DNA of 64,000 bases from Tellurirhabdus rosea. GTDB taxonomy: Bacteria; Bacteroidota; Bacteroidia; Cytophagales; Spirosomataceae. Within the stretch, counting starts at the first letter, position 1; the number at the start of each line of letters is the position of its first letter. The position numbers were made by a program, and so were the translations under genes. Location: the NCBI RefSeq assembly GCF_026278345.1, contig NZ_CP111085.1, positions 186,001-250,000 of the forward strand, written 5' to 3'. This document shows positions 4,944-39,267 of this stretch, one piece after another. Under the pieces are notes generated by a model, which was not told the origin of the DNA, searched no databases, and saw only the letters and a program-made list of their open reading frames with translations.

Positions 4944-4949
4944 ATTCAG

Positions 4950-24219: not shown

Positions 24220-25224
24220 TCAAAGTCTGGCCAGTAATTCAGCTTTTTTGGCGGTGAATTCTTCTTCGGTCAGGATGCCCGCCGCCTTCAGTTCGCCCAG
24301 TTGTTTCAGCATGTCCATGATTTTGCCTTTATCCTCAGACCCCGCCGCCGGAGTCGTCGGATTGGTGGGCGCGCTGGCGTTCTGCATGAAATTTCCCAGG
24401 CCGCCCATCAGGATGGCCTGTCCGGCGGCTCCGCCGTTTTCGGCGGCATCTTCGAGCGCCACTCCGGCCTGAAACTGCTGGAACCGGGCCATATCGCCGA
24501 CCATGTTCATCTGCGTGGTTTTGTCCAGAAACGCCTCCACTTCCGGCGGTAGGCTGGTATTTTCGATGTAGAACCGGGCCAGTTCCAATCCGTAGGCCGT
24601 AAAATGTTCCTGCAGGAGCGGCAGGAGCTTGTCGCCCATTTCGCGGTAATTACGGGCCATGTCGAACACGGATACCCCGGCTTCGGCTACCGTATCGGAG
24701 AAGTTGGTCACGATGGCCGAGCGCAGTTGGGCCTCCACATCCCCGATGCGGACCACGGGCGTCGTTCCGGCAAATTCTTTAATCAGTTTTCCGGCGTCCG
24801 TCACCCGCAGCGCAAACACCCCGAAGGCCCGCACCCGCACCTGCTTCAGCTCGGGATCGCGCATGATGACCGGGTTCTGCGTGCCCCATTTGAGGTTGGT
24901 GAACTGCTTTGTCGAGACAAAATAAACGTCCACTTTGAACGGCGACTCGAAGCCGTACTTCCACGACCGGAGCGTGGTCAGAATCGGCATGTTCTGGGTC
25001 GTCAGTTCGTAGCGTCCCGGCTGGTAGACGTCGGCAATGCGGCCTTCGTTCATGAACACGGCCACCTGCGACTCCCGCACGGTCAGTTGAGCGCCGTACT
25101 TGATGTTGTTGCCGTTGTCCGGAAATTTCCAGATGACCGTGTCAGTCGAGCCGTGCGACGGACCGTTATCGACCCATTCGATGACCTCGATGAATTCGTT
25201 TCGGATAAAATCAAAAAGACCCAT
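24220..25224 (-). CDS. SPFH-domain protein with C-terminal SHOCT motif
   Basis: The 334-residue protein starts MGLFDFIRNEFIEVIEWVDN and carries an SPFH (stomatin/prohibitin-like) domain over roughly residues 20-220, then a Gly/Ala/Asn-rich linker. It ends in a SHOCT helix pair (LKQLGELKAAGILTEEEFTA). It has no transmembrane helix, which suits the YdjI-like group (once called virion core protein). It is followed after 17 bases by the zinc-ribbon membrane protein, and the pair probably forms a membrane-associated complex of unknown function. Confidence 0.82.
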   Translation of the reverse strand: MGLFDFIRNEFIEVIEWVDNGPSHGSTDTVIWKFPDNGNNIKYGAQLTVRESQVAVFMNEGRIADVYQPGRYELTTQNMPILTTLRSWKYGFESPFKVDVYFVSTKQFTNLKWGTQNPVIMRDPELKQVRVRAFGVFALRVTDAGKLIKEFAGTTPVVRIGDVEAQLRSAIVTNFSDTVAEAGVSVFDMARNYREMGDKLLPLLQEHFTAYGLELARFYIENTSLPPEVEAFLDKTTQMNMVGDMARFQQFQAGVALEDAAENGGAAGQAILMGGLGNFMQNASAPTNPTTPAAGSEDKGKIMDMLKQLGELKAAGILTEEEFTAKKAELLARL

Positions 25225-25353
25225 GGTTTAGGTTGCTGGTTTGTGGTTGGGGCAAGCCAAAAGGGAATTGCCCTCGGATGGTGTAAAACTACAGCATGGA
25301 CGGCAATCTATACTGCATACTTCACAAACGGTTTTTTAGGACCGTAAAAAAAA

Positions 25354-25380
25354 GAAAAAACCCGGCTGGAAGGTCCGGGT
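25354..25380 (-). terminator. Terminator of the gapN-like gene
   Basis: On the reverse strand ACCCGG (25380-25375) and CCGGGT (25365-25360) form a stem followed by a long T-rich run (25360-25345). It is 60 bases downstream of the stop at 25441. Confidence 0.65.
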
Positions 25381-25440
25381 CCTGGGCTTGACGGGTTCGT
25401 GCGGAGAGGAACGGAGCTTTTCCGCCCCTCCGCGAAAACC

Positions 25441-27069
25441 CTAGAAGATGAACTTGGTCGACAGGAACTCCGACCGGTGTTCTTCGACGATGTCGTTCAG
25501 GATGGCTTTGTTGTCGGCCGTGTCCTTGGTGGCGACGACCGTCCGGATGGAGAAGGAGCGCAGGGCGTCCTCGACCGACAGCGTACCTTCGGCGGAATCT
25601 TTCCGGCCCGTGAACGGGAAGGTGTCGGGTCCGCGCTGGCACTGGGCGTTGATGTTGACCCGGCTCACCTGATTGACGAGCGGGTCCACCAGGCTGGCGA
25701 TCTCGGCCGGGTCCGTCCCGAAAATGCTGACCTGCTGGCCGTGGTCGGAGTCGATGATGTACTGAATCGGCTCCTCGATGTCGTCGAAGGGCACCACCGG
25801 CACGACGGGACCGAACTGTTCCTCGCGGTAAAGCTTCATGGCCGGACTGACCGGGTAAACGACCGCCGGGAAGAAGAACGACTCCTGCACCGTGCCGCCG
25901 CCCTCGTTGACCACCTGAGCGCCGTGGGCCTCGGCATCGCGCAGGCATTCGGTCAGGTAAGCGGGTTTCTGCGGCTCCGGCAGCGGCGTGATCTGGGTGC
26001 CTTTCTCCCAGGGCAGGCCCGGTTTCAGTTTGTTGACCTCTTCGGTAAAGCGTTCGAGGAAGCGGTCGGCGATGGACCGATGCACCCAGACGATCTTGAT
26101 GGCCGTGCAGCGCTGCCCGTTGAACGAAAGCGTGCCCAGCAGGCATTCCTTCACGGCCAGGTCGAGGTCCGCATTGCCGAGGATGATGCCCGCGTTTTTG
26201 GCGTCGAGGCCGAGCACCGCGCGGAGGCGGTTCACTTTCGGATGTAATTTCTTGAGTTGATCGGCTACCCGGCTCGACCCGATGAGCGTCAGGACGTTGA
26301 TTCTCCCCGACCGCATCAGCGCCGGAACAACCGTATTGCCCCGTCCGTAGATCGTGTTGACGACCCCTTTCGGGAAACATTCCTTAAACGCTTCGAGCAT
26401 CGGGAAGTGCAGCAGAGTGCCGTGCTTGGGGGGCTTAAAGAGGATGGTGTTGCCCATCAGAATGGCCGGAATCAGGGTGGTGTAGGTTTCGTTCAGCGGG
26501 TAGTTGAACGGTCCCATGCACAGCACGACGCCAAGCGGCGAGCGGCGGATCTGGCCAATAATTCCCTGTTCGATCCGGAACCGTGAAGAGGCCCGGTCCA
26601 CGTCTTTCAGCGCATCAATGGTGTCGTAGATGTACTCCACCGTCCGGTCGAACTCCTTGGTCGAGTCGCCGAGGGTTTTGCCGATTTCCCACATGAGCAG
26701 GGACACGATCTGGCTTTTGCGCTCCATCATTTTGCCGACGAAACGCTCCATACAGGCGATCCGGTCGGCTACCGACATGGTTGGCCACTCGCCGCGGCCA
26801 TTGTCGTAGGCCCGGACGGCCGCGTCCAGGGCCTGCATGGCTTCGATATCCGAAGCGGGCAGCGGATAGCTGCCGATGACCTTGCGCCGGGCACCCCGGT
26901 CGGTCTGGATGTAGACCGGCGACAGCACTTCCTGAACGGGTCCGTCCCAGGTCCGCAGTTCGCCGTCGATGAGGTACTCGCGCTGGTGAAGTTCCTGAAT
27001 CCGGAACTCTTCCGGGATGCTGCTTTCCGCCGGAATCAAGTGTTCGAGAGCAAGAGAGAGGGTTGACAT
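25441..27069 (-). CDS. gapN: GapN-like aldehyde dehydrogenase without the general-base glutamate
   Basis: The 542-residue protein belongs to the aldehyde dehydrogenase superfamily and most resembles non-phosphorylating NADP-dependent glyceraldehyde-3-phosphate dehydrogenase. Visible: catalytic Asn189 in GPFNYPLN, cofactor site FKPPKHG, GSSRVAD, catalytic Cys321 in SFNGQRCTA, and KLYREEQFGPV. The usual LELGGK motif reads LGLDAK, so the Glu that sits 34 residues before the Cys is Gly287. GapN makes 3-phosphoglycerate and NADPH from glyceraldehyde-3-phosphate in one step. With Gly at that site deacylation may differ. Single gene, own terminator. Confidence 0.8.
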   Translation of the reverse strand: MSTLSLALEHLIPAESSIPEEFRIQELHQREYLIDGELRTWDGPVQEVLSPVYIQTDRGARRKVIGSYPLPASDIEAMQALDAAVRAYDNGRGEWPTMSVADRIACMERFVGKMMERKSQIVSLLMWEIGKTLGDSTKEFDRTVEYIYDTIDALKDVDRASSRFRIEQGIIGQIRRSPLGVVLCMGPFNYPLNETYTTLIPAILMGNTILFKPPKHGTLLHFPMLEAFKECFPKGVVNTIYGRGNTVVPALMRSGRINVLTLIGSSRVADQLKKLHPKVNRLRAVLGLDAKNAGIILGNADLDLAVKECLLGTLSFNGQRCTAIKIVWVHRSIADRFLERFTEEVNKLKPGLPWEKGTQITPLPEPQKPAYLTECLRDAEAHGAQVVNEGGGTVQESFFFPAVVYPVSPAMKLYREEQFGPVVPVVPFDDIEEPIQYIIDSDHGQQVSIFGTDPAEIASLVDPLVNQVSRVNINAQCQRGPDTFPFTGRKDSAEGTLSVEDALRSFSIRTVVATKDTADNKAILNDIVEEHRSEFLSTKFIF

Positions 27070-27153
27070 AAATAAACAGGTTGCAGGTACTAGATTAATA
27101 AAAAAGGACTGTGGTCTTGTTGTTCAGGTTCCGCAAACGTTGCCGGAAGGAAT

Positions 27154-27190
27154 AAAAAAACCGCTTCGAACAGAAAGTAACGAAGCGGTT
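27154..27190 (-). terminator. Terminator downstream of the first tRNA-Leu
   Basis: AACCGCTTCG (27159-27168) and CGAAGCGGTT (27181-27190) form a 10-bp stem. On the reverse strand the stem is followed by a seven-T run. It differs in sequence from the terminator of the second tRNA copy. Confidence 0.75.
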
Positions 27191-27212
27191 GATGAAATGT
27201 AGTCAAAAAACT

Positions 27213-27309
27213 GAGTACCGGGAGCCGGACTCGAACCGGCATGTCCTTGCAGACAATGGTGTTTGAGACCATCGCGTCTACCGATTCCGCCATCCCGGCC
27301 TGAAATCGA
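27213..27309. repeat. 97-bp direct repeat, copy 1 (tRNA-Leu boundary of the island)
   Basis: The stretch from GAGTACCGGG to CCTGAAATCGA, including the whole tRNA gene, recurs base for base at 36146-36242 in the same orientation. The unit from repeat to repeat is 8,933 bases. Homologous exchange between the copies could delete or circularise the segment. Confidence 0.9.
27216..27299 (-). tRNA. tRNA-Leu (anticodon CAA)
   Basis: The 84-base sequence on the reverse strand starts GCCGGGATGGCGGAATCGGT and ends CGGCTCCCGGTA. The acceptor stem pairs GCCGGGA with TCCCGGT, the anticodon stem ATGGT/ACCAT holds loop CTCAAAC (anticodon CAA), there is a long variable arm as in leucine tRNAs, and the T-loop is GTTCGAGTC. 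CCA is not encoded. A second identical copy lies at 36149-36232. Confidence 0.95.
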
Positions 27310-27571
27310 AGGAAAAACCGTTTCTGGGCGCAAATTACGAAGGATTTTTCATTCGCCTAGTACTTTGTTTTTCTTTTTCCCCGATTGGCCAAACGCTGGC
27401 GGGGAACCTGTCCGGGCGCTGCGCCGGCAATCTTTCCGGCAATGGAAGCGGACTCTGAAGCGTTCGCCGTCAGCATTCAGGTCCAAAACTGCCTCTTTCA
27501 GGGAATGGACCGGGACCAAGGCCGCCCCTGCGAAAGAGGCCCTTCCCGGTGAATTTCCGTTCCCGATGCCC

Positions 27572-27992
27572 TTACTCGTACGTGAATGTACTGCCGTAAG
27601 TCTGGGGACTATACTTACCGGTAGGATCGGTGTAGGTAGTTGTTCGAGAGGTTACATAGCCCTTGGCATCAAACTGGTACAGTAACTCGTAAACGGCCGT
27701 CATTTCTCCTGCCTCATCAAAGGTTTTGTGCTTGATGGGTAGGCTCTTGGTCGGTTTTCCCAAGTAATCATTTGTCCAGAATGTGAACGATCCGTATTAC
27801 TTGGCCGGAATCATTCAGCGTATACGTATATTTTGCCTTTTGTTTCCACTGCTGAGTAGCAGGCAGGTAGTCGAAACTGGTAATCTGAATCTGCTTTGGT
27901 TGGTAGGTATATTGATGGTAGAAGTCCGGGCTCCACTCAGATTCTTCGCTCTGGTCGGTATTGATTCTTTCAATCCTGCCATAGCGTTGTGA
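27572..27992 (-). pseudogene. Remnant of a secreted YD-repeat-like protein, frameshifted and 5'-truncated
   Basis: Reading leftward from 27992, one frame gives RYGRIERINTDQSEESEW..., then YTYQPKQIQITSFDYLPA and YTYTLNDSGQVIRIVHILDK and stops. The sequence carries on in the next frame as DYLGKPTKSLPIKHKTFDEA, then YQFDAKGYVTSRTTTYTD to the stop at 27572. A one-base change near 27766-27771 joins both. A stop lies directly upstream and no start codon is present, so the 5' end is missing. The Y-x-Y/Dx-GxV pattern resembles cell-surface repeat proteins of this phylum. The neighbouring 27310-27571 holds no feature I can support. Confidence 0.65.
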
Positions 27993-28041
27993 TTAAGTTA
28001 AGTTCGAATGATTTCCCCGAAGAGGGGCTGCCCTCAGGTGC

Positions 28042-28611
28042 TCATCGGTCGTAAGCGTATTCGGCCAGTTCGGCCAGCATGGTCTGAATTCTGGCTTCCC
28101 ACTGCCGCTGCTTTGCCTCCAGACGGCCGCTGTCGGTATCGTCCGAATATTCCACAATCAGCCGGTTGCACTCGGCCATGAGCTGCTCGTGGCGGGCATC
28201 GAAGGTCTGCCCACCCCTGAGGATGATGGTGCGGCGGTTATCCTTCAACTCTTTCCGCAATTTGCGGGCGTACACTTCCAGAATATCGAAGCGGGTTTGT
28301 TCGTACGTCAGCAGCAGGTCGGGCTCATAATTGGTCGTATCCATCCACGAACCCGAGCGCTGCAGGTAGTTGACCACCTTTTTGTTGAGGTGTTTGGAGT
28401 AGAGGTCGTAGCCACGCAGATCGTATCCGACCAGAATCATGCCCACCACCGGGGTATTTCCCTGAGGGTGCGGACGGGCCATCCGATAATCACTGGCTTG
28501 CAGCTTCCGGGTAGCCGACCAGAGCACGTAGTCGGGGTTGTTTTCGTACTTGGACTGGGCCTGCGCCGCAAAGAACGGCAGGAAGGAAAGAATAAAAACC
28601 AGTTGCTTCAT
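28042..28611 (-). CDS. Secreted DUF922-like protein with degenerate metal site
   Basis: I start at ATG 28611 (MKQLVFILSFLPFFAAQAQS), which gives a clear signal peptide. The 189-residue protein has the layout of the DUF922 putative zinc-protease family: SATRKLQASDYRM near the start, then a central helix LLTYEQTRFDILEVYARKLRKEL, then a long C-terminal helix. Family members usually read HEQxHFDI in that helix. Here both histidines are replaced (Y and R), so zinc binding is probably lost. It lies inside the tRNA-bounded island. Family assignment is from memory of the motif and is moderate. Confidence 0.6.
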   Translation of the reverse strand: MKQLVFILSFLPFFAAQAQSKYENNPDYVLWSATRKLQASDYRMARPHPQGNTPVVGMILVGYDLRGYDLYSKHLNKKVVNYLQRSGSWMDTTNYEPDLLLTYEQTRFDILEVYARKLRKELKDNRRTIILRGGQTFDARHEQLMAECNRLIVEYSDDTDSGRLEAKQRQWEARIQTMLAELAEYAYDR

Positions 28612-28879
28612 ATGTTTGTAGAACAGCCAGTACAACGCAAGATTCATACCAACCGGTTTCGGGAGGGTGATTTTGGAGATGAGATTTTACTACCCAGAAA
28701 CCCGCCCGGTTCACGCGACACTTCATTACCCTAAAATCACCAAAAGCCGAGGGTATTATGAGGGTGGTAACATTGCCAAGTTAGACTAATAGCTATCTTA
28801 GCAAAGCTTACGCAGCAGCACTCATACAACAGGAAAACACCTTCCAATTGTGGTATTCTTTTAAATAACTAAACTATTT

Positions 28880-29605
28880 ATGAAAAAAAATTATACAACT
28901 TGGCTGTGCTTACTGATCGGATTAGTAACAGCCTGCCATCAAGCGGATGTAGTAGCTGACCAACCCCTCCAAATTCAACAGGCGCGCGTAATTGACGATC
29001 CGAGTACTCGTGTTGATATAGATCAGCAAACCCATACTATTACCGTTTCACCTTCCACTTTTAAGGCAGGTCGCATTCGAGATAGAATCATGAATCTACT
29101 GGTAAAGACCTCCATCAATGCAGTCTTAGGCCCCGTTAACCCAAACCTGACTCCATCACTGGAACAACCATTTTCGTTCGATGTAACCACTTATGATAAC
29201 AGCAAGCCCACCTATTTACGAGTACGGCCCATCAACACGGCACTAACCACTTATCAAGACTATCAACTTCTATTAAAAGCAGCTGGTCCTGTCCGGTTCG
29301 AATTAATGCAAGCGGGAATGGATAGCCTGATTATAAACCTAAAAAACTATCAAAGGTACTTAGTCAACTTACCCGTTAGTAATCTCTATGATGGTCGCTT
29401 ACAAGACTATCAAATTTATGCAATCCCCGCAGATGGGACATCACCGATTGAATTGACAGTTGGCAATGATGGCTACAGTCCAGATTATGTCCAGTTTTAC
29501 TTTGACCGGCAAAAAACTAAGCCCGGCGTATACCAGATTGAATTACGCAAGTCAGACGGTCAGCGTAGCCAGTCTTCCACTCAGGTTATTGTTAAAAACT
29601 CTTAG
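28880..29605 (+). CDS. Lipoprotein of unknown function (AT-richer than its surroundings)
   Basis: The 241-residue protein has a lipoprotein signal (LCLLIGLVTAC, cysteine about 19). The mature part holds two beta-rich stretches: HTITVSPSTFKAGRI... and DGTSPIELTVGNDGYSPDYV, ending YQIELRKSDGQRSQSSTQV, like an IPT/TIG-type immunoglobulin fold at the C-terminus. No family recognised. The gene and its flanks use many A/T-ending codons, unlike neighbours, which suggests recent transfer. It lies alone, pointing right, in the island. The flanks 28612-28879 and 29606-29784 show no gene I can support. Confidence 0.65.
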   Translation: MKKNYTTWLCLLIGLVTACHQADVVADQPLQIQQARVIDDPSTRVDIDQQTHTITVSPSTFKAGRIRDRIMNLLVKTSINAVLGPVNPNLTPSLEQPFSFDVTTYDNSKPTYLRVRPINTALTTYQDYQLLLKAAGPVRFELMQAGMDSLIINLKNYQRYLVNLPVSNLYDGRLQDYQIYAIPADGTSPIELTVGNDGYSPDYVQFYFDRQKTKPGVYQIELRKSDGQRSQSSTQVIVKNS

Positions 29606-29978
29606 AATCAAAGGATAATTGCTACCGTTTCTGGATGGAAGTAATTCGGATGAAGCGACAAGTGGCGGGACGAATACTCGTATCGGCTTTGAAGCGCACT
29701 CAAACATCAAAGTTCCGCTGTTGATAAGCCGAAGGGAGGCCCGGGCTTGTCATCCTATTTAAGTGTTTAAACTTTCACTCTGTTTTACTTCTTCTTTTTT
29801 AGATGGTAATATTCACCGACAGGTGAGATGGGCATTAAATTCAAAGAAGCCTTAGACAGTTCATCAACAAGAAAGCAAACTTTAGGATTATTGGTCATAA
29901 AGCAACCCACCATATTAGGTGATGGCGGGACTTCGGTAAAATCGCAGACGCATGGGGTGGTCCGGTTTAGCCGGACAG

Positions 29979-30869
29979 TCAACTATGCAAGTTTTGATTT
30001 AACGTTAAATAATACTGGTTTTCATATTGTTCGGGGCTGAGGTAGCCCAGCGACGAGTGCCGCCGTTTGCGATTGTAATAGCATTCAATGTAATCAAATA
30101 ATTCAGTTCGGGCATCTTCCAGTGAGCGGAAGGCTCCGTTTTCTAACAGTTCAGCTTTCAGCCTGGACCAGCAGGATTCCATAAACGCATTGTCGTACGG
30201 ATCGTTGGGTCGGCTCATACTCTGTTGAATTTGATTAGTAAGTAGGGTATTGCGGAATGACTTGCCAATATACTGGCCACCCCGATCGGAATGTACGATC
30301 GCATTCGGATTCAGGTTGCGACGCAATAAGGCTTTTTTCAAGGCCTCATGGACCAGCGATTCTTCCATGTGTAATTCAATCTGCCAGCCTGCGATCAGGC
30401 GAGAATACAGATCCATCCAGGCAGCCAGATAGGCCCATTCTCCAGTAACCAAAGGAATATATGTAATATCCCCAACCAGTACACACCCTGGCGCGGCAGG
30501 AAATGGGCTATCTGCTAACAAATTAGGACTAAAAGGTCCACTATGGCGGCTGTCCGTCGTTCGGGGAATAAAGCTTCGGGGCTGAATTGCCCTTAATCCT
30601 TCACGGCGCATCAGCCGTCGGAGTTGATGCCGTCCCACCGAATAACCTTGCTCTTGTAATTCCGGCGTTAACCGACGACTGCCGTATCGACGACGATGAT
30701 CGGCAAAACTTTTCTGCATAGCACCAATGAGCTTTCGTTTCTCTTCAGATACTTGATAGCTCAAACCCCGTCGATATTCATAGTAGGCACTTCGGCTGAT
30801 CTCCAAGGCATGACAGATTACTTGAATCGGGTGGTGATTACTCAGTTCAGTGACCAGTTTATAGACCAC
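29979..30869 (-). CDS. IS3-family transposase OrfB (DDE catalytic part)
   Basis: The 296-residue catalytic part has an N-terminal helix-turn-helix region (HPIQVICHALEISRSAYYEY) and an rve integrase core. The DDE acids are in VLVGDITYIPL, AIVHSDRGGQYIG and DNAFMESCWSRLKAE. The listed start is a GTG at 30869, but in this family the protein is usually made as an OrfAB fusion through -1 frameshifting. The frame upstream of the GTG stays open through SVGHFQPDDLTVV, which supports fusion at 30901-30908. Confidence 0.93.
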   Translation of the reverse strand: MVYKLVTELSNHHPIQVICHALEISRSAYYEYRRGLSYQVSEEKRKLIGAMQKSFADHRRRYGSRRLTPELQEQGYSVGRHQLRRLMRREGLRAIQPRSFIPRTTDSRHSGPFSPNLLADSPFPAAPGCVLVGDITYIPLVTGEWAYLAAWMDLYSRLIAGWQIELHMEESLVHEALKKALLRRNLNPNAIVHSDRGGQYIGKSFRNTLLTNQIQQSMSRPNDPYDNAFMESCWSRLKAELLENGAFRSLEDARTELFDYIECYYNRKRRHSSLGYLSPEQYENQYYLTLNQNLHS

Positions 30870-30871
30870 CG

Positions 30872-31165
30872 TCAGGTCATCCGGCTGAAAATGGCCAACG
30901 CTTTTTTTAACACTTCGCGTTCCTGCTCGACACGACGAAGTTGTTCCCGGACCCGCTCATATTCCTCGATAGATACGGTGCTACCATCCGGGTGGCCTGC
31001 TTTTTTATTCCCTTTCCAACGATAGAGCAGATTCTCCGAGATGCCCAGTGAACGGGCCACATCAGCAACGGTCCGGTCACCAGTAGTAGCTAGGCGAACA
31101 GCTTCTTTTTTGAAATCCTCATCGTACTTTCGACGAGGCATCAGCACGGATTTGTTTTGGCTCAT
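30872..31165 (-). CDS. IS3-family transposase OrfA (DNA-binding part)
   Basis: The 97-residue protein is a helix-turn-helix plus leucine-zipper OrfA. It shows RRKYDEDFKKEAVRLATTG, ADVARSLGISENLLYRWKGN and a C-terminal coiled coil (EYERVREQLRRVEQEREVLK). It binds the element ends and dimerises. It ends 2 bases before the OrfB start and contains the slippery run. Confidence 0.92.
   Translation of the reverse strand: MSQNKSVLMPRRKYDEDFKKEAVRLATTGDRTVADVARSLGISENLLYRWKGNKKAGHPDGSTVSIEEYERVREQLRRVEQEREVLKKALAIFSRMT
30901..30908 (-). other. Programmed -1 frameshift site of the IS3 element
   Basis: On the reverse strand the codons TTA AAA AAA GCG contain A7G. Slipping back one base turns ...LKKALAIF... 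into ...LKKSVGHFQPDD and joins OrfA to OrfB. The A-AAA-AAG pattern is the standard IS3-family signal. Confidence 0.8.
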
Positions 31166-31566
31166 GGTACAGCTAAGTTAAGCACTTAGACTGTCCGGCA
31201 AAACTGGACCATCTCAGCATTCGTCCTCCATTTTGTACGTGGATGGCTTTTGAGACAATCCTTTCACCCTGAAGGTGACGGTGGTAGCTGTGAATGTAAC
31301 GGTCTGTTTTGGATCATCATTCAACACCCATGTACCAATCAACAGCTTTTTTATCTCTGCTGCCGTTTTTATATTCTCCCCACCCAAAGTCCCTAATCCC
31401 TCTGAACTCCAGGTTTCGGTACTAGTCTGGGCAAAGGCTGACGATGACAAGAAAATTAATGATGAGAAGCAAAAACCAAGTAATGTTTTTTTCATTCAAT
31501 GTGCTTAATTATAAGACACAAATGTAGAAAGCTTAATGTGTATATTTTCTACCAAGCATTCGCTTT

Positions 31567-32616
31567 TTATCGACCGTACTCTTTCACCTCTTCGGCCGTC
31601 CTGCGGGCGGACCGGTTAACGCCAATCAGGGTAGCCGACGCAAACCCTGTCCAGTTGCCGTAACCGACCAGCCAAAGGCCCGGCTGGCGCGTAGACCGGG
31701 TTTCGGCGACCTCCACCCGGCCCTCCGGAGTCAGTACGTTCAGGGGAGCCAGAAAGTCGAGGGCAGGACGAAAACCCGTACACCAGAGGATGGCGTCAAA
31801 GCGTTCCTGCGTGCCATCCGGCCACTCCACCCCTTCCGGTATGATCCGGGCAAACGGTCGTCGGGCCTTCAGCACCCCACGGCTTCGCGCCTCCCTGACG
31901 CTATCGAGCATGATAATGTCGCCAAGGCTGGCGGGCGGCAAGGTCACTCCCTGCTGGGCGGCGTGGAATCGCTGGGTAGCCACTTCGAACACGTACCGGC
32001 CGTCTACCTCGTCGGGCAGAAAGGTCGGCTCGTGCAGCGTAACCCACTGCGTATGTGCCACCCGGGAAACCTCCGCCAGAATCTGAGCGGCGGAGTTGCC
32101 TCCCCCCACAACCAATACGCGCTGGCCCCGAAAAGCTTCCGGGGAACGGTAATGGGCCGAGTGAATTTGTCTGCCTCCAAAGGAATCCCGTCCGGGATAG
32201 TCAGGAATAAAGGGCTTACTCCACGTACCGGTAGCGGCAATCACCGTCCGACTGTGAAAAACACCCGCCGAAGTGTGCAGCCTAAAGCCTTCGGTTTCCT
32301 TTTCAACCGACTCCACCTGTACCGGCCGTTTGACCGGGAAGCTGTAGCGCTGTTCGTAGCGGGTCAGGTAATCGATGGCTTCATTCCGGTCGGGGTACGC
32401 CTCTGCCGTGGCGGGCATGAGCCATCCGGGCAGGGAGCTGGCCGCCGCCGGAGAAAACAGCCGCAGCGAATCCCACGCATGCGGCCATGCCCCACCCGGC
32501 TGAACGCCAGCATCCAGCACCAGATAGTTCGACGTGACTTTCCGCAGATGGTAGGCCGTCGCCAGTCCGGACTGACCGCCCCCGATGATAACCGCGTCGA
32601 GGTAGTTAACTTCCAT
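31567..32616 (-). CDS. arsO: ArsO-type flavin monooxygenase of the arsenic operon
   Basis: The 349-residue protein has two Rossmann motifs: FAD site IIGGGQSGLATAYHLR (about 10-25) and NAD(P) site VLVVGGGNSAAQILAEV (about 165-181). GTWSKP and CTGFRPALDFL complete the class B flavin-monooxygenase-like pattern. In ars operons this subfamily is called ArsO. Its reaction is not firmly established; oxidation of an organic arsenical or redox support of resistance is proposed. It is the last gene of the leftward ars operon, 54 bases after acr3. The left neighbour is the IS-split gene. Confidence 0.85.
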   Translation of the reverse strand: MEVNYLDAVIIGGGQSGLATAYHLRKVTSNYLVLDAGVQPGGAWPHAWDSLRLFSPAAASSLPGWLMPATAEAYPDRNEAIDYLTRYEQRYSFPVKRPVQVESVEKETEGFRLHTSAGVFHSRTVIAATGTWSKPFIPDYPGRDSFGGRQIHSAHYRSPEAFRGQRVLVVGGGNSAAQILAEVSRVAHTQWVTLHEPTFLPDEVDGRYVFEVATQRFHAAQQGVTLPPASLGDIIMLDSVREARSRGVLKARRPFARIIPEGVEWPDGTQERFDAILWCTGFRPALDFLAPLNVLTPEGRVEVAETRSTRQPGLWLVGYGNWTGFASATLIGVNRSARRTAEEVKEYGR

Positions 32617-32670
32617 TTTGGTTGCGATTTTAACGAATCGCGGGAACGCTGTCTGGACTGGGAAAGTGGG

Positions 32671-33729
32671 TCATGAACGGGCTGATACTCTAAAATCGGC
32701 CTGTTTTTTAAGCGCCACGTTCACCAGCAGAATCAGCACCGGCACTTCGATGAGTGGTCCGATCACGGCGGCGAACGCCACCCCCGAATGAATGCCGAAC
32801 ACGGCGATGGCCACGGCAATTCCCAACTCGAAGTTGTTGCCTGCCGCCGTGAAAGCCAGTGAGGTGCTCTTTGGGTAATCCGCCCCGGCCCGTTTGGCCA
32901 GATAGAACGCCGAGAAGAACATGAGGACAAAGTAGATCACCAGCGGAATCGCGATGCGAACCACATCCAGCGGAATCTCCACGATCATCCGGCCTTTGAG
33001 GCTGAACATCACCACAATGGTAAATAGCAGCGCTACCAGCGTCAGGGGACTGATGGCGGGCAGAAAACGGGATTCGTACCACTGCCGCCCTTTCAGGCGC
33101 ACCAGTAGGTAACGGGACAGCATGCCTGCTCCAAACGGGACGCCCAGATAGATCAGGACGCTTTCGGCAATCTGGCCGATGCTCACCTCGACGGCCACGC
33201 CCTGAAGCCCCACCAGAGGCGGCAGAACGGTGATAAAGAGGTAAGCGTAGACCGGGTAGAACAACACCTGAAACACCGAGTTAAAGGCCACCAGACCCGC
33301 TACGTACTCGCGGTCTCCCCCGGCCAGATCGTTCCAGACAATGACCATCGCAATGCAGCGGGCAATACCGATCATGATTAATCCCACCATGTAGTCCGGC
33401 TTGTCGGGCAGCAGCAGCACGGCCAGTCCAAACATGAGCAGAGGGCCGATCAGCCAGTTCTGCACCAAGGACAACAGCAGAATACGGGTGTTGCGGAAGA
33501 CGTCCGGCAGCTTCTCGTAGCGCACCTTGGCCAGCGGCGGATACATCATCACAATCAGACCGATTGCGATGGGGATATTGGTTGTCCCGCTCTGGTACTG
33601 GTTCAGAATGCCATCAACACCCGGGAAGAAATAGCCGATAGCCACTCCCAGCGCCATCGCTCCGAAAATCCAGACCGTCAGAAAGCGGTCCAGGAAAGAC
33701 AATCTGCCTTTAGTTAGGGTGGCTTCCAT
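32671..33729 (-). CDS. acr3: ACR3-type arsenite efflux transporter
   Basis: The 352-residue membrane protein has about ten helices. [20 protein letters not shown] carries the conserved cysteine of the fourth helix, and [18 protein letters not shown] is the conserved stretch near the C-terminus. It exports As(III) from the cytoplasm using the proton gradient. I start at ATG 33729; a TTG one codon earlier is possible. The start overlaps the end of arsC by 20 bases, so translation is coupled to the reductase that makes its substrate. Confidence 0.95.
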
Positions 33730-34138
33730 CAATCTGCTGCTGGATAAACGTCTGGCTATAGGCTTTGATCTGGTCCCTCACGGCCCGGAACTGTTCCATA
33801 ATTTCGTCGGGGCTACCGGTCGCTTTGGCCGGGTCCGGGAAGTTGTAGTGAAATTTCCGGGCGGTGGTGGGAAAGTAAGGGCAACGCTCGCGGGCATTGT
33901 CGCAGACGGTGATGACGTAATCAAACGGAACGTCCGCGTACTCATCAACGTGGTTGGAGGTGTGACCGGACAGGTCGATGCCCTCTTCGGCCATCACGGC
34001 GATGGCTTTGGGATTCACCCCGTGGGTTTCTACCCCCGCGCTGTAGACCTTGGCTCGGTCGCCAGCCATGGACTGGAGGTAGCCGTGGGCGATCTGACTC
34101 CGGCAGGAGTTGCCCGTACAAAGAACCAGTATGTTCAT
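33710..34138 (-). CDS. arsC: Arsenate reductase, low-molecular-weight phosphatase type
   Basis: The 142-residue protein has the phosphatase P-loop LCTGNSCRS with catalytic Cys7, and the relay pair Cys79 and Cys86 in [13 protein letters not shown]. That is the thioredoxin-coupled ArsC layout. It turns As(V) into As(III), which Acr3 exports. It overlaps acr3 and follows arsM after a 100-base gap that holds a hairpin. Confidence 0.94.
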
Positions 34139-34160
34139 CTTAAAAAAGAATGGGTTAATT

Positions 34161-34231
34161 CCGGCAACACCGCCCCTGCCCGGTCAGCGCCAGCCTTACG
34201 GACGATTACGTTTCGGGGCGGATGTTGCCGG
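34161..34231. repeat. Hairpin between arsM and arsC
   Basis: CCGGCAACACCGCCCC (34161-34176) pairs with GGGGCGGATGTTGCCGG (34215-34231), with a one-base bulge and a 38-base loop. On the reverse strand a short A/T run follows. It may reduce transcription into arsC-acr3 or stabilise the arsM mRNA. Confidence 0.55.
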
Positions 34232-34238
34232 AGTAAGC

Positions 34239-35066
34239 TTATTTTTCGGCGTAAACGGTGACGCTGAAGATGCCCGGAACTGCTTCACCTTCGCCCGCCG
34301 CGGGCAGTTCATCCCGGTAGGCGGCGAGGACTTCTTCGGGCAGGACGATCTGCCGTTTCTTCTGCAATTGGATGTTGCGGAACCCGGCCTCCTTCACCGC
34401 CGCCAGATAATCCCGGAGCTGAATAGCCCCCGAGACGCAACCGGCATACAGTTCGGCGTCCTGTTTCAGCCGGGGTGGCAGTTCTCCTTCCAGCACGATG
34501 TCCGAGATGCTGAAATGCCCTCCGGTCTTCAGAACCCGGTACGTCTGGGCGAAAGCCCGCTTTTTGTCGGGCACCAGATTCATCACGCAGTTGCTGACCA
34601 CCACATCCGCCAGATCATCCGGCAGGGGCATGTCTTCAATGTCACCCTGCACAAACTCAACGTTGGTGTAGCCCCGGGCGTCGGCATTCCGACGAGCCCG
34701 CTGGACCATGCTTTCGGTAAAATCCAGCCCGATCACCCGGCCCGTCTCGCCGGTTTCGGCCCGGGCCACAAAGCAGTCGTTGCCCGCCCCGGAGCCGAGG
34801 TCTACCACGACATCGCCGGGTTTGATGAGGGCAAACTGGGTGGGCAGTCCGCAGCCCAGCCCCAAGTCCGCTTCGGCCACATAGCCATTCAGGCCCGAAT
34901 AAGCTTCGGCCATGTTGATGGCTTCCGCCCCGGCGGTAGAAGGAGTGCAGCAGGACGTGGGGCCGCAGCCGCAGTCCACGGGGACTCCCGCCGGATTTTC
35001 GGTCTGGGCAATTTCGCCGTACTTCTGACGGACTACGGCTTTCAGTTCATCAGCATTGTTTACCAT
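34239..35066 (-). CDS. arsM: Arsenite methyltransferase ArsM
   Basis: I start at ATG 35066 (MVNNADELKAVVRQKYGEIA). The 275-residue protein has a SAM site VVDLGSGAGNDCFVA, GDIEDMPLPDDLADVVVSNC and arsenic-binding cysteines in VDCGCGPTSCCTP, in SNCVMNLVPDKK and in YAGCVSGAIQL. It methylates As(III) to methylated arsenicals, some volatile. It lies between arsN2 and arsC in the same direction. Confidence 0.93.
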   Translation of the reverse strand: MVNNADELKAVVRQKYGEIAQTENPAGVPVDCGCGPTSCCTPSTAGAEAINMAEAYSGLNGYVAEADLGLGCGLPTQFALIKPGDVVVDLGSGAGNDCFVARAETGETGRVIGLDFTESMVQRARRNADARGYTNVEFVQGDIEDMPLPDDLADVVVSNCVMNLVPDKKRAFAQTYRVLKTGGHFSISDIVLEGELPPRLKQDAELYAGCVSGAIQLRDYLAAVKEAGFRNIQLQKKRQIVLPEEVLAAYRDELPAAGEGEAVPGIFSVTVYAEK

Positions 35067-35104
35067 GTTCGGATAGAGGTTTATAAAGTGGATTGAATGA
35101 ATTG

Positions 35105-35548
35105 CTACAGGGTCATCTTCATGACGGTGGCCGTCGAAGGGCAAAGGCCGTTGAACTGGCTTGTCTTCCCGATGGCTTCGGGCACATCGGTTCGGGCCAC
35201 GGTCGCAAATCCGTACCGGCGGAAATATGCCTCGGCGGTGGTCGTAATCAGGTAGGCTTCCCGGACACCCGCCTCCCGGGCGGCATCCAGTACCGCGCCC
35301 ACCAGCTTTTCTCCTAACCTTTGGGAGCGGTATTCGGGCGACACGGCGACCGACCGAAGGAGGCCCACCGGACCGTGGTACTCCATCCCCGCCAGCCCGA
35401 CAAGCCGGGTCTGGTCGTAGAGGACCACAAAATGGGGAAGGTCAGCGGGCAGGTCGTCGGTGGGCAGACTCGCTGCGCGGAGCAGGCCGTGAGCGGCGGG
35501 GACATCGCTCGACTCGGCAGGTCGGATAGCTGGGTTCATGGCGTCCAT
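35105..35548 (-). CDS. arsN2: Arsenic-resistance GNAT acetyltransferase ArsN2
   Basis: The 147-residue GNAT protein begins MDAMNPAIRPAESSDVPAAH and has the acetyl-CoA loop RSVAVSPEYRSQRLGEKLV, then AYFRRYGFATV. ArsN proteins acetylate arsenic-containing amino-acid analogues such as arsinothricin. ArsN2 is the related group found in ars operons with unproven substrate. A Met at codon 4 is another possible start. An ArsR-type operator ends 5 bases upstream of the ATG. Confidence 0.85.
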   Translation of the reverse strand: MDAMNPAIRPAESSDVPAAHGLLRAASLPTDDLPADLPHFVVLYDQTRLVGLAGMEYHGPVGLLRSVAVSPEYRSQRLGEKLVGAVLDAAREAGVREAYLITTTAEAYFRRYGFATVARTDVPEAIGKTSQFNGLCPSTATVMKMTL

Positions 35549-35553
35549 AGTTT

Positions 35554-35569
35554 ATCGCAATAATACGAT
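35554..35569. promoter_or_regulatory. Second ArsR operator, upstream of arsN2
   Basis: ATCGCAATAATACGAT is an imperfect palindrome differing by one base from the operator before arsR. It lies between the arsR terminator-like hairpin and the arsN2 start, so the downstream five genes may have their own ArsR control. Confidence 0.6.
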
Positions 35570-35579
35570 TGATTCGGTC

Positions 35580-35605
35580 AAAAAAAAGCGGCGACCCAAG
35601 GGGTC
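35580..35605 (-). terminator. Weak terminator after arsR
   Basis: On the reverse strand GACCC-CTT-GGGTC (35605-35593) is followed by GCCGC and eight T. The stem is short, so read-through is likely; the arsR stop codon lies in the first stem base. Confidence 0.45.
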
Positions 35606-35930
35606 AGCAGCAGGATTGGGGCTGATAGGCCGCCAGCAGGGCACCGAACGCCTGCTGGACCTCGGCCCAGACGGCTTCGTTGATGCAGTAGCACACCCGG
35701 GGCGGATCGATGTCGCCCTTGATGATGCCCACCCGCTTCAGCTCTTTGAGGTGCTGGGAAACGGTGGCCTGTGCCAGCGGCAGTTCCTCCACCAGATCAC
35801 CGCACACGCAGGACTTGCGGGTGGCCAGCAGTTGCAGGATGGCTACCCGGGCGGGATGAGCCAGTGCTTTGGCCAGATCAGCAATGCGGTTCTGCTCGGC
35901 GGTGAATACTTCGGTCTTTGTTACTCCCAT
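35604..35930 (-). CDS. arsR: ArsR-family arsenic-responsive repressor
   Basis: The 108-residue winged-helix repressor has [20 protein letters not shown], the As(III) site CVCGDL (Cys41, Cys43) and recognition helix [21 protein letters not shown] second Cys pair ends the protein (QSCC). It should leave its operator when As(III) binds. It is the first gene of the leftward ars operon, and its -7 element lies only 5 bases upstream of the ATG, so the mRNA may be leaderless or nearly so. Confidence 0.94.
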
Positions 35931-35934
35931 GCCA

Positions 35935-35973
35935 CAAAAGTAATGGCTAAATTGAATATCGCAATATTACGAT
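35935..35973 (-). promoter_or_regulatory. arsR promoter with overlapping ArsR operator
   Basis: On the reverse strand the -7 element TACTTTTG (35942-35935) has TTG 19 bases upstream (35964-35962). The TTG lies inside the palindrome ATCGCAATATTACGAT (35958-35973). A repressor there would block the -33 region. Confidence 0.7.
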
Positions 35974-36100
35974 GGAATATTTTTTTCAACGGTACTTCTG
36001 CTGATCGTTAAAGGGGATAAAGCAATTCTTTCAGATTCAGCGGCGGGCAGAGAAAGCCCGGTTGGAGCGCTGCTGCACATCGTTTCCGGTAAAATCCGGT

Positions 36101-36143
36101 AAAAAATAAAGAAGCCGTAACACGGATCAACGTGTTACGGCTT
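36101..36143 (-). terminator. Terminator downstream of the second tRNA-Leu
   Basis: AAGCCGTAACACG (36112-36124) and CGTGTTACGGCTT (36131-36143) form a perfect 13-bp stem with a 6-base loop. On the reverse strand it runs into a T-rich tract. Confidence 0.8.
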
Positions 36144-36145
36144 AA

Positions 36146-36242
36146 GAGTACCGGGAGCCGGACTCGAACCGGCATGTCCTTGCAGACAATGGTGTTTGAG
36201 ACCATCGCGTCTACCGATTCCGCCATCCCGGCCTGAAATCGA
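36146..36242. repeat. 97-bp direct repeat, copy 2 (tRNA-Leu boundary of the island)
   Basis: Identical to 27213-27309 and in the same orientation. Outside the repeat the flanks differ on both sides at once. Confidence 0.9.
36149..36232 (-). tRNA. tRNA-Leu (anticodon CAA), second identical copy
   Basis: Base-for-base the same 84 bases as the copy at 27216-27299, with its own terminator and an AT-rich upstream region that shares ATnTTGCGC with the first copy. Both genes look intact and functional. Confidence 0.95.
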
Positions 36243-36251
36243 TGCGCAATA

Positions 36252-36467
36252 TTAATGAATAATGAACAACGAAGAATGAATCAGAAAGGGAAATTCAGCG
36301 ATTATTTCACAAGTGACTGACTCTCCGCCTCATAAAATCAAGCCTTCCGCCCCACCGCAAACCCCGCCCTCAAGCCTCCCCACTCCTCCTTCATTGCAAT
36401 CCGCCACCCCGTTCATTCCGGTCCGCCGCCGCGGTTCATTATTCATCATTCATCATTCATTACTCGT
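36252..36467. repeat. Word-repeat inverted repeat with a long C-rich centre
   Basis: TTAATGAATAATGAACAACG words (36252-36282) are mirrored by TTCATTATTCATCATTCATC (36434-36467). The about 150 bases between are strongly C-rich on this strand. The TAA stop of the permease (36460-36462) is the first word of the right arm. Confidence 0.65.
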
Positions 36468-37698
36468 ACCGCAGCGCCTCGATCGGGTCAAGCCGGGAGG
36501 CTTTGAAAGCGGGATAAATGCCGGAGAACAGCCCTACGGCCACGCAGACGATGATTCCCATCATCATCCAGAACCAGGGAACGACAAATCCGCCCTTGCC
36601 CTGGCTGACAACCATGGAAATCAGGTTCCCGATTCCCAGACCGAGCAGGATACCGCCCAGACCGCCGAGTACGCAGATTACGATGGCTTCGATCAGAAAC
36701 TGCTCCCGGATGCGCTGGGGCGTGGCGCCGAGCGATTTCCGGATTCCGATCTCGCGGGTACGTTCGGTGACCGAAACCAGCATGATGTTCATCAGGGCAA
36801 TGGCGGCCCCCAGCAGGGTGATAAAGCCGATGCCGAAGCCGCCGATGCGGAGGACGTTGGTATTTTCTTCGAGTTCCTTAGCCAGTTCGTCAGCCCGGAT
36901 GATGCGGAACGAATCCGGGCGGCCCAGCGGGTCCTGCCGAATCTGGCGCATGAGGCCGCGGGCTTCTCCAATGACCACATCCGGGTCTTTGCTGCCCTCG
37001 ACGGTAGACGTAATGTCGAAGGTCAGCGCCCGGCCGCCTGCCAGCGCGCGGCCTACGTTCAGCGGAATCAGCACCAGCCGGTCGTCGCCGGCGCCGTTCA
37101 GACTGCCTTTCTTTTCCAGCACCCCGATTACCTTGAAGCGCGTTCCCAGCACCGAAATTTCCTTGCCTTCCGGTGACACATTCCGTTCAAAAAGCGTATT
37201 GACGAGTTCCGACCCAATGATGGCCACGTTCAGGGAATTGACCAGGTCGTTCTCGGTGAAGTTCCGGCCCTGCGCCAGTTTCGAGCCTTTGACGGCCAGA
37301 TAGGTGTCATCCACGCCCACCAACTGCGTGTTCGGATTCGTTTTTTTGGAGGCATATTTCACCTGCGCGGCCCCGGTAATCATTGCCGAGACGGAAATGG
37401 ATGCTTTGTAGGGAAAGCGCCGCTTGAAGATCATTGCCTGCCGGAAGTCAATCGGCGGTACCTGCTTTTCGGCGCGGCCGCCAAACCGGCGAAACATGTT
37501 CGGCCCTTCAATGTCAAACGTATTGGCCCCCAGCGAACCTAGGCCGCTTTCGAGAGACGCCTGGATGCCGTCGATGGCCGTCAGGATGCCCACCAGGGAG
37601 GTGATCCCGATGGCGATGATGGCCGAAGTCAGGATCGTTCGTAGCCGGTTGGATGCAATGGAGCGAAGTCCTTCGCTGATGTTTTCGGTTAGATTCAT
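36460..37698 (-). CDS. MacB/FtsX-type ABC transporter permease
   Basis: I start at ATG 37698 (MNLTENISEGLRSIASNRLR). The 412-residue protein has a first helix (ILTSAIIAIGITSLVGILTA), a periplasmic MacB-like domain (about 50-270) and three C-terminal helices (GGFGIGFITLLGAAIALMNI, IVICVLGGLGGILLGLGIGN, and one near 380), ending in the YPAFKASRLDPIEALRYE motif of the FtsX family. Such permeases work with a LolD/MacB-type ATPase in lipoprotein transport, export or cell-envelope signalling. No ATPase lies next to it. Confidence 0.88.
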   Translation of the reverse strand: MNLTENISEGLRSIASNRLRTILTSAIIAIGITSLVGILTAIDGIQASLESGLGSLGANTFDIEGPNMFRRFGGRAEKQVPPIDFRQAMIFKRRFPYKASISVSAMITGAAQVKYASKKTNPNTQLVGVDDTYLAVKGSKLAQGRNFTENDLVNSLNVAIIGSELVNTLFERNVSPEGKEISVLGTRFKVIGVLEKKGSLNGAGDDRLVLIPLNVGRALAGGRALTFDITSTVEGSKDPDVVIGEARGLMRQIRQDPLGRPDSFRIIRADELAKELEENTNVLRIGGFGIGFITLLGAAIALMNIMLVSVTERTREIGIRKSLGATPQRIREQFLIEAIVICVLGGLGGILLGLGIGNLISMVVSQGKGGFVVPWFWMMMGIIVCVAVGLFSGIYPAFKASRLDPIEALRYE

Positions 37699-37701
37699 CT
37701 T

Positions 37702-37816
37702 CTTAATGAGTGATTGCGTGAATGAGCGGTCCGCCGCTGCGGTGACAGAATAAGCAGCAAAGCAATGCACCCAGAAGGCAGATCACTTAATCGCTCAATC
37801 GCTCTTTCACTCAATG
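37702..37816. repeat. Word-repeat inverted repeat upstream of the permease
   Basis: CTTAATGAGTGATTGCGTGA (from 37702 to 37730) is mirrored by GATCACTTAATCGCTCAATC and CTCTTTCACTCAATG (37781-37816). Unlike most members it lies in the 5' region, 4 bases from the permease start, between divergent genes. Confidence 0.65.
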
Positions 37817-37887
37817 TTAGTTCTCCTGCACAATTTTTGCTATTTTTCGTTACAAAGCTATATGCAACCTGAAAATCCTGCACACCA

Positions 37888-39150
37888 ATGAACCGGCTGC
37901 TGCTACCGTTTATCCTTTTCTTCGCCTTGGTAAGCCCGGCGATGGCTTCCAAAATCCTGATTCCGATGGATGAGGGCCAGAAGAATCATCTGAAAGCCTA
38001 CGGCATTGCCTACTGGGTGCTGAAGCAGTACGATACCGAAATCGACTGGCTGCTGAATTACCGCGGCGGCAGTTTCATGATGCCGGTCAACCAGAAATTC
38101 ATCAACGAACTGGTGGTGCGCGGCGTGAGCTACGACGTTATTTCCGACGCGCAGGGCGCCCAGATCCTAGCGGAAGTATCTTCCCCGGATGCCAACATGG
38201 ACGCGGTCAAGCTCCAGAAAGCCCCGAAAGTAGCCGTTTATTCGCCCAAGACCAAACAACCCTGGGACGACGCCGTCACGCTGGTGATGACCTACGCGGA
38301 GATTCCGTACGAGGTGGTCTACGACGACGATATCATGGAAGGCAAGCTGACCCAGTACGACTGGCTGCACCTTCATCATGAGGATTTTACGGGACAATAT
38401 GGGAAATTTTATCAATTCCGCTCCGAACCCTGGTACGTGGCCCAGCGCCGCGAAGCCGAGCTGATCGCTAAAAAATACGGCCTTACGAAAGTTTCTCAGT
38501 TGAAGCTGTCCGTCGTTCGCAAAATCCGGGAATACTGCCTCGGCGGGGGGTATATGTTTGCCATGTGCAACGCCACCGATACCTACGACATCGCCCTGGC
38601 CGCCCAGAACACAGACGTGGCCGAGTCCATCTACGACGGCGACGGCGCGGACCCCGCCGCCAACAACAAACTGGATTTCAGCCAGACCATGGCCTTCCGC
38701 AACTTTCAGGTGTATACGAACCCCTACCTGATCGAGTTTTCCAACATCGACAACCAGCCCGACGAGCGGGGCCTGAGCGAACAGAACGACTACTTCACGC
38801 TGTTCCAGTTTTCCGCCAAATGGGACCCCGTCCCGACCATGCTGACCCAGAACCACATGAACATCATCAAAGGGTTTATGGGACAGACCACGGCCTTCAA
38901 GAAAAATCTGATCAAACCCGAAGTGGTCGTTCTGGCCGAGAGCAAGGCCGCCAACGAGGCCCGGTACATTCACGCGCCCTACGGCAAAGGCTTTTTCACC
39001 TTCTACGGCGGGCACGATCCGGAGGATTACCGCCACGAAATCAACGAAGAACCGACCGACCTCGCCCTCCATCCCAATTCGGCAGGCTACCGGCTCATCC
39101 TGAACAACATCCTCTTCCCGGCCGCCAAGAAGAAAAAACAGAAAACCTGA
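37888..39150 (+). CDS. Conserved secreted protein often labelled asparagine synthetase B
   Basis: The 420-residue protein has a signal peptide (LLLPFILFFALVSPAMASK). It begins ILIPMDEGQKNHLKAYGIAY and contains DWLHLHHEDFTGQYGKFY, GGGYMFAMCNATDTYDIALA and KGFFTFYGGHDPEDYRHEIN. Databases often call such Bacteroidota proteins asparagine synthetase B, but neither the glutaminase nor the synthetase motifs of AsnB are visible, and a signal peptide is at odds with that role. The HLHHEDF and GGHDPEDYRH stretches look like a glutamine-amidotransferase-like or hydrolase fold. Function unknown. Confidence 0.75.
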   Translation: MNRLLLPFILFFALVSPAMASKILIPMDEGQKNHLKAYGIAYWVLKQYDTEIDWLLNYRGGSFMMPVNQKFINELVVRGVSYDVISDAQGAQILAEVSSPDANMDAVKLQKAPKVAVYSPKTKQPWDDAVTLVMTYAEIPYEVVYDDDIMEGKLTQYDWLHLHHEDFTGQYGKFYQFRSEPWYVAQRREAELIAKKYGLTKVSQLKLSVVRKIREYCLGGGYMFAMCNATDTYDIALAAQNTDVAESIYDGDGADPAANNKLDFSQTMAFRNFQVYTNPYLIEFSNIDNQPDERGLSEQNDYFTLFQFSAKWDPVPTMLTQNHMNIIKGFMGQTTAFKKNLIKPEVVVLAESKAANEARYIHAPYGKGFFTFYGGHDPEDYRHEINEEPTDLALHPNSAGYRLILNNILFPAAKKKKQKT

Positions 39151-39154
39151 GAAG

Positions 39155-39267
39155 GGTTTGGAGTTTATAGTTTAAAGTTTAGGGTTGCTCCGCTTGTTCT
39201 GAACACGGCAGAGCAACCCTAAACTTTGAACCCTCAACCATAAACTATAAACCATAAACTTCAAACC
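39155..39267. repeat. Word-repeat inverted repeat between two rightward genes
   Basis: GGTTTGGAGTTTATAGTTTA words (39155-39190) are mirrored by 39211-39267, with the inner 17 bases AAAGTTTAGGGTTGCTC/GAGCAACCCTAAACTTT exact. It begins 5 bases after one stop and ends 7 bases before the next start, filling the whole gap. The vocabulary is shared with 56581-56665. Confidence 0.85.

Follow-up and report, generated by a model that had tools for sequence, protein, structure and literature searches.

A derelict arsenic-resistance island between two complete tRNA-Leu(CAA) genes in Tellurirhabdus rosea is likely the integrase-less remnant of a tyrosine-recombinase element

The stretch of the Tellurirhabdus rosea genome analysed here (contig NZ_CP111085.1, positions 186,001 to 250,000; 64,000 nucleotides, hereafter the window) harbors an arsenic-resistance (ars) operon within an island at 27310-36145, bounded by two identical 97-bp repeats that each contain a complete tRNA-Leu(CAA) gene. 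This island is likely a derelict, integrase-less remnant of a tyrosine-recombinase element, similar to a cis-mobilizable element (CIME). The target of the original element would have been the 3' end of the one ancestral tRNA-Leu(CAA) gene, which on its promoter side still borders a gene coding for a MacB-type permease. Its proximal (right) end would have been kept, with the tRNA, the terminator, a tandem pair of repeats of about 10 bp and the adjoining ars operon, and its distal (left) end would have lost both the integrase and the repeat pair, bringing a decayed lipoprotein gene to about 260 bp from the distal tRNA; insertion of an IS3-family element and gene decay would have come later. We favor this reading because the same tRNA site is used by integrase-bearing elements in three other genomes, because one end of the island retains its repeat pair, and because a sister element in the same genome carries an integrase and has a 1.2-kb block in common with the island. 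The repeats, the synteny, the sister element with its shared block and the repeat pair at one end are directly visible in the sequence, and the insertion by an integrase, the loss of this enzyme and the role of the paired repeats are deduced from them.

The direct repeat had been reported in an earlier note on this DNA and was recovered by ARAGORN and by a repeat comparison. Its two copies show 100% identity and the same orientation at a distance of 8,933 bp, and each consists of the 85-nt tRNA gene with 10 bp of upstream leader and 2 bp of downstream trailer. They are the only full copies found in the genome (one contig of 5,582,807 bases), the next-best matches being two tRNA-Leu(UAA) genes at 74%. 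Outside the 97 bp the copies diverge, each having a separate leader, which we take to be promoter-like by the Bacteroidota consensus, and a separate terminator-like hairpin. Both are probably functional tRNA-Leu genes, since the distal copy too is complete and has its own promoter-like leader (TAATTTGCGCCCA) and terminator-like hairpin. The identity stops 2 bp past the tRNA, which anchors the repeat at the 3' terminus of the tRNA, in the manner of the integrase-bearing elements of genomes G214, G028 and G003 described below. As a mark of a recent event it was rejected for the tRNA part, which says little on age because the same 85 nt are found at 100% in at least 24 other genomes of the family among the matches listed. 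A duplication of the cargo as origin of the repeat was also rejected: a search of 24000-40000 (seed 14) yielded no direct repeat above 32 bp other than the tRNA copy.

The right copy, beside the MacB-type gene, is taken as ancestral and the left one as extra, because a search for tRNA-Leu(CAA) detected it in 23 of the 30 flanked MacB loci (this genome included; three of the seven loci where it was not found reach a contig end within 350 bp behind MacB), against only 2 of the 30 loci of the left neighbor, an aldehyde dehydrogenase (ALDH) family gene, namely the left copy of this genome and that of G008. Orthologs of this ALDH are listed in 29 other genomes at 60-86% identity, two of them partial. 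Four relatives (G017, G005, G019 and G009) have ALDH and MacB on the same contig, and in each a single tRNA-Leu(CAA) lies between the two; relatives that lack the island and still carry two tRNA copies, which the earlier note would have taken as an argument against its island, were not seen. Its proposed empty site was recovered in part, as this single tRNA between the two neighbors, but no clean gapN-tRNA-MacB arrangement was found (gapN-like being its name for the ALDH gene), the gap being filled in all four relatives by other genes, which from their translations code for a secreted protein, oxidoreductases, a catalase-peroxidase, a sensor kinase and a TonB receptor. The arsenite permease gene acr3, where present in these four genomes, is located elsewhere. 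MacB and tRNA-Leu(CAA) are far apart in the congener G001. The terminators were not decisive as a guide to the original flank, as they differ too much between genomes.

The 97-bp repeat gave at least one match in 211 of 222 genomes of the family (E <= 1e-12) and two matches in nine, among the matches listed, and within the same matches no further case of two complete copies enclosing a segment could be placed in these genomes. G028 was rejected as a second such case, as it has one tRNA in two contigs overlapping by 126 nt, and in G154 the second match, at 0.8 kb from the intact tRNA, covers 73 nt of the 3' part with mismatches and has no repeat pair. The two matches are 1.5 Mb apart in G002 and on different contigs in each of G165, G166, G167 and G086; those of G168 have no positions in the list. 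G002, G165, G166 and G167 belong to one genus (g2) and have two matches each, as opposed to one in most genomes of the family.

In this family the 3' end of tRNA-Leu(CAA) is a real integration site, used by several different elements, because integrase-bearing elements sit there in three other genomes. That of G214 extends over 5.3 kb past the tRNA 3' end and is closed by a 22-bp repeat of the tRNA end, with a 411-aa integrase gene adjoining this repeat and ALDH within 2 kb beyond; no MacB was detected in the 3 kb upstream of the tRNA. The other two measure 6.9 kb in G028 (13-bp tRNA repeat, 421-aa integrase) and 15.3 kb in G003 (17-bp tRNA repeat). The integrase gene adjoins the distal end in all three, and the repeats extend to the 3' terminus of the tRNA (by one more base in G214, and not beyond it in G028). 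The integrases of G214 and G028 harbor PF00589 (Phage_integrase) and SAM-like domains, together with an arm-binding domain that is clear in the former and below cut-off in the latter, and the G003 integrase, also matching PF00589, is 35% identical to that of G028. Paired short direct repeats, which we infer to be integrase arm sites, are present just inside both ends of the three elements, with a motif that differs by element (TTACCGAAAC-like in G214, GGTTACG in G028 and TGTACGG in G003). Stretches of about 12.5 kb past the tRNA in 20 Spirosoma-like genomes (for G237, the other side of the tRNA) contained an integrase match in G214 only. A repeat pair is also present in G222, where the 19.8 kb from the tRNA on contain neither a second pair nor an integrase match, and in G237, whose contig extends only 4.6 kb beyond the tRNA.

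The right end of the island carries such a pair. Two tandem copies of TTTTACCGGA, 43 and 53 nt past the right tRNA, come directly after the terminator-like hairpin, as in the integrase-bearing elements at tRNA-Leu(CAA), and represent a candidate integrase arm-type site that would mark the proximal element end. The pattern TTACYG-N3-7-TTACYG has a single occurrence in the window, at this position, and 19 in 2,257,767 bases of other loci, of which eight are element ends and 11 background (these bases are partly redundant, and some of the element-end matches are the same site in two loci). By our own arithmetic, a chance match on the correct strand within 100 nt of the tRNA would arise about 2 times in 10,000, and for TTTACCG-N2-5-TTTACCG none is expected from 100 shuffles. 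The putative attachment (att) ends of the island would consist of the 97-bp repeat on both sides and of the paired repeats on the right only.

The same genome harbors a 26-kb integrase-bearing element at tRNA-Leu(UAA) (G000:C1:3501105-3527529). A 195-bp direct repeat delimits it on both sides, beginning inside tRNA-Gly, spanning the complete tRNA-Leu(UAA) and ending precisely at the 3' end of the latter; a 439-aa integrase is encoded beside the distal copy, and a TTTACTGAAAC pair is present at both ends, one distal unit having one mismatch. No second tRNA-Gly/tRNA-Leu(UAA) unit was found in 11 other genomes examined. Positions 27570-28760 of the window match this element at 85-87% in three pieces, about 1.2 kb in all. 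This block is composed of the gene h201, coding for a secreted-type protein, and of the next lipoprotein gene, a pseudogene without two stretches in the island, and has the same order and orientation towards the distal tRNA at both loci. The lipoprotein gene lies about 3.6 kb from the distal tRNA in the tRNA-Leu(UAA) element, integrase included, against about 260 bp in the island, which is what the loss of an integrase end would leave. The tRNA-Leu(UAA) element has no acr3, the sole match of the genome being in the window. The next-best relatives of h201 in the genomes searched do not exceed 35% aa identity. As a side observation, the tRNA-Leu(UAA) genes of G009, G005, G029 and G189 are interrupted at the anticodon by a sequence scoring as a group I intron (Rfam), and those of G001 and G033 have an interruption at the same position with no intron match above threshold; the copies of the present genome have no intron.

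In agreement with the earlier note, no tyrosine recombinase gene is present: the window has no PF00589 match, the five of the genome being all outside, and tblastn with five, then seven, integrases gave no hit in it. The note had also excluded a serine recombinase, and this holds for the ten island open reading frames (ORFs) scanned with Pfam, no genome-wide search for these enzymes having been made; integration and transfer genes were likewise not found among the same ten ORFs. As for its suggestion of a tRNA-targeted integrative element, such an element with its integrase lost is the best-supported option, but two complete tRNAs are not the usual shape, since a tRNA-targeted element normally leaves a tRNA and a 3' fragment. 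This is one of the points that weigh against an element origin: the distal copy is a whole tRNA-Leu and not the 3' fragment predicted by the usual model, in contrast to the tRNA fragments of 13-22 bp in the G214, G028 and G003 elements, and its own terminator-like hairpin and promoter-like leader are those expected of an independent tRNA paralog. The left end has no paired repeats, with one single match at two mismatches in 27000-29000, and no integrase remnant was found in the island. A generic repeat-pair score turned out to be weak as proof of an element end, values of at least 8 being reached in 9 of 59 contexts against 46 of 1,180 shuffled ones (the 59 contexts count two genomes twice and include both copies of this genome). 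The motif-specific match alone is strong, because a generic score of at least 10, as at the right end, is reached by 41 of 3,000 random 170-nt stretches, and the TTACYG pattern was defined only after the site had been seen. Finally, the surroundings (5.8-19 kb) of h201 homologs in five other genomes (29-35% aa identity) contain no match to seven integrases and no tRNA. A role of h201 as an element-specific gene is thus not supported in those five genomes, and because of these distant loci the shared block, while it links two loci of the present genome, is alone no proof of an element gene. The complete distal tRNA is the unusual part of the arrangement, and as it is seen at two leucine tRNA loci of one genome, an accident appears less likely.

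The main rival explanation is that the tRNA-Leu gene was duplicated alone, in tandem or as a copy from a relative, and that unrelated accessory genes, including ars, accumulated later without ever having formed one element. The separate leaders and hairpins of the two copies are consistent with this scenario, as are the uneven base composition of the island (59.9% G+C in ars against 42.8% in the lipoprotein stretch) and the presence of other genes between ALDH and MacB in four relatives; moreover, the 85-nt tRNA is identical across many species, so that identity of the copies needs no recent event. It leaves unexplained, however, both the repeat pair at the right end and the block at 85-87% identity in the tRNA-Leu(UAA) integrase element in the same orientation, and among the matches listed no other genome with two matches has two complete copies around a segment. 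We consider such a duplication unlikely.

The other options of the earlier note, help from a partner element or homologous recombination between the tRNA copies, have no direct support. It is quite improbable that in this lineage a class of elements brings along a complete and expressed tRNA-Leu as attachment site, leaving two working tRNAs behind, with the integrase of the tRNA-Leu(UAA) element acting on both loci and still mobilizing the ars island. Mobility of the island by an integrase acting in trans on the 97-bp copies, for example that of the tRNA-Leu(UAA) element, also appears very improbable. A related integrase does exist in the genome, the G214 enzyme at tRNA-Leu(CAA) being 39.7% identical to the resident one, and the TTTTACCGGA pair resembles the TTTACTGAAAC and TTTACCGAAAC pairs of the tRNA-Leu(UAA) and G214 elements, but the resident integrase sits at a different tRNA, 74% identical to tRNA-Leu(CAA), the left end is without a repeat pair, and the insertion sequence and the pseudogene point to decay. 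Least probable of all is a gain and loss of the island only through RecA-dependent recombination between the tRNA copies: a perfect 97-bp direct repeat would permit occasional deletions leaving one intact tRNA, but this accounts for loss and not for arrival, and no observation requires it.

The cargo (Table 1) corresponds to that outlined in the earlier note, with an ars operon in the order arsR-arsN2-arsM-arsC-acr3-arsO, one IS3-family copy, a pseudogene and AT-rich secreted proteins. ArsR has cysteines at positions 41, 43, 80, 82, 107 and 108, and these six are the positions mutated in the recently described ArArsR of Arsenicibacter rosenii, according to the account in PMC11868830. The IS3 element has no other match in the genome and is inserted within a small secreted-protein gene. 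The ars cargo can be described as patchy across the family, because the congener G001 gave no acr3 match and the gene was detected in 126 of 222 genomes of the family at E <= 1e-80, and in 27 of 59 at E <= 1e-3 (both counts include this genome). The conservation of the cargo across the genus, another finding that would have spoken against the island of the earlier note, was thus not seen, at least for acr3 in this one congener. Outside this genome, the closest acr3 to a tRNA-Leu(CAA) on the same contig is about 171 kb away, in G019, among the matches listed and as compared by eye.

Table 1. Features of the island, its ends and its neighbors (window positions)
Feature	Position	Strand	Remarks
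Left neighbor, ALDH family protein (gapN-like gene of the earlier note), conserved core-type	25441..27069	-	NCBIfam ALDH-family models shown, all below cut-off
Terminator-like hairpin followed by a T run	27159..27190	-	24 nt past left tRNA; direct sequence reading
Left (distal) 97-bp copy	27213..27309	-	complete tRNA-Leu(CAA) 27215-27299(-), 10-bp leader; presumably promoter-like TAATTTGCGCCCA further upstream
Lipoprotein pseudogene, internal segments gone, frames broken	27570..27986	-	about 87% DNA identity (blastn) to intact 265-aa ORF in tRNA-Leu(UAA) element
h201, secreted-type, 201 aa	28042..28647	-	no Pfam/NCBIfam match; paralog at 88% aa identity inside tRNA-Leu(UAA) element
AT-rich lipoprotein-like ORF, 241 aa	28880..29605	+	no Pfam match
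C-terminal part of small secreted-protein gene, split by IS3	29785..29952	-	reading frame
IS3-family insertion sequence	29953..31216	-	ORFs 29979-30869 and 30872-31165; GCA at 29950-29952 and 31217-31219
N-terminal part of IS3-split secreted-protein gene	31220..31495	-	reading frame
arsO, flavin monooxygenase	31567..32616	-	NF040505, 532.6 bits (cut-off 425)
acr3, arsenite efflux permease	32671..33732	-	TIGR00832, 450.3 bits (cut-off 282.8)
arsC, thioredoxin-type arsenate reductase-like	33710..34138	-	TIGR02691, 156.0 bits, below cut-off 174.3; PF01451 (LMWPc domain)
arsM, arsenite methyltransferase	34239..35144	-	NF008823, 329.1 bits (cut-off 263)
arsN2, N-acetyltransferase	35105..35548	-	NF040501, 159.8 bits (cut-off 125)
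arsR, repressor	35604..35930	-	NF033788, 64.8 bits (cut-off 55); model specifies the ArsR/SmtB subfamily only
Tandem pair TTTTACCGGA x2	36085..36104	-	candidate arm-type site, proximal element end
Terminator-like hairpin past right tRNA	36112..36144	-	direct sequence reading
Right (proximal, taken as ancestral) 97-bp copy	36146..36242	-	complete tRNA-Leu(CAA) 36148-36232(-)
Right neighbor, MacB-type permease, conserved core-type	36460..37770	-	best model MacB, below cut-off

Elsewhere in the window, short AT-rich tandem and inverted repeats recur at 39156-39245, 2262-2309, 3832-3864, 4948-4980 and 56619-56665, with tandem units of 7, 14 and 21 bp.

Several known systems share features with the island. 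CIMEs are presented in PMC5704250 as elements that have lost their integration and transfer genes, retain attL and attR, and are mobilized in cis or in trans by a related element. The island is similar in that no integration or transfer genes are recognised in it (these would formerly have been present), its repeats lie at a tRNA 3' end, and a related integrase element exists in the genome; it differs by a distal repeat that is a complete tRNA gene and by paired repeats at one end only. The islands sought by Islander lie, as outlined in PMC4383910, between an intact tRNA gene (tDNA) and a displaced tDNA fragment in the same orientation, with the integrase inside, and hits inside a full-length tRNA are rejected (PMC4383910). 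The ars island has likewise two direct copies in the same orientation anchored at the tRNA 3' end, but these are two complete tDNAs and not a tDNA and a fragment, and no PF00589 match lies between them. NBU1 and MTnPi4 are given as Bacteroidota mobilizable elements located at the 3' end of tRNA-Leu (PMC5704250; for NBU1 also PMC10865867). Likened by description only, they have in common with our case the phylum and the leucine tRNA 3'-end target, as well as a tyrosine recombinase in elements of the G214, G028 and G003 type, whereas the ars island has no integrase match and no recognised mobilization gene.

The nearest precedent found for a complete distal tRNA would be that of phages with tRNA-dependent lysogeny, such as Gaia, which are reported to carry their own complete tRNA of the isotype they disrupt (tRNA-Leu(CAA) in Gaia; PMC10865867). 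The host tRNA is disrupted in that case, whereas both copies are intact around the ars island, and the Pfam and NCBIfam scans of island ORFs revealed no phage genes, PHROGs not having been searched. Closer at hand, the tRNA-Leu(UAA) element has a complete tRNA at both ends, paired repeats and the h201 and lipoprotein block in common with the island, but differs from it by its 26 kb, its retained integrase, the other leucine tRNA and the lack of acr3. No description of this locus, or of a tRNA-bounded arsenic island in this family, was found among the titles and abstract openings of the open-licence papers listed.

The present analysis places an arsenic-resistance operon in what is likely a decayed tRNA-anchored element, and documents, for two leucine tRNA loci in the same genome, repeats that span the entire tRNA gene. 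Islands lying between two complete tRNAs may be under-counted, because Islander-type finders filter out exactly that shape. It becomes testable whether the host would benefit from a complete second tRNA, or whether this second copy would let elements stack.

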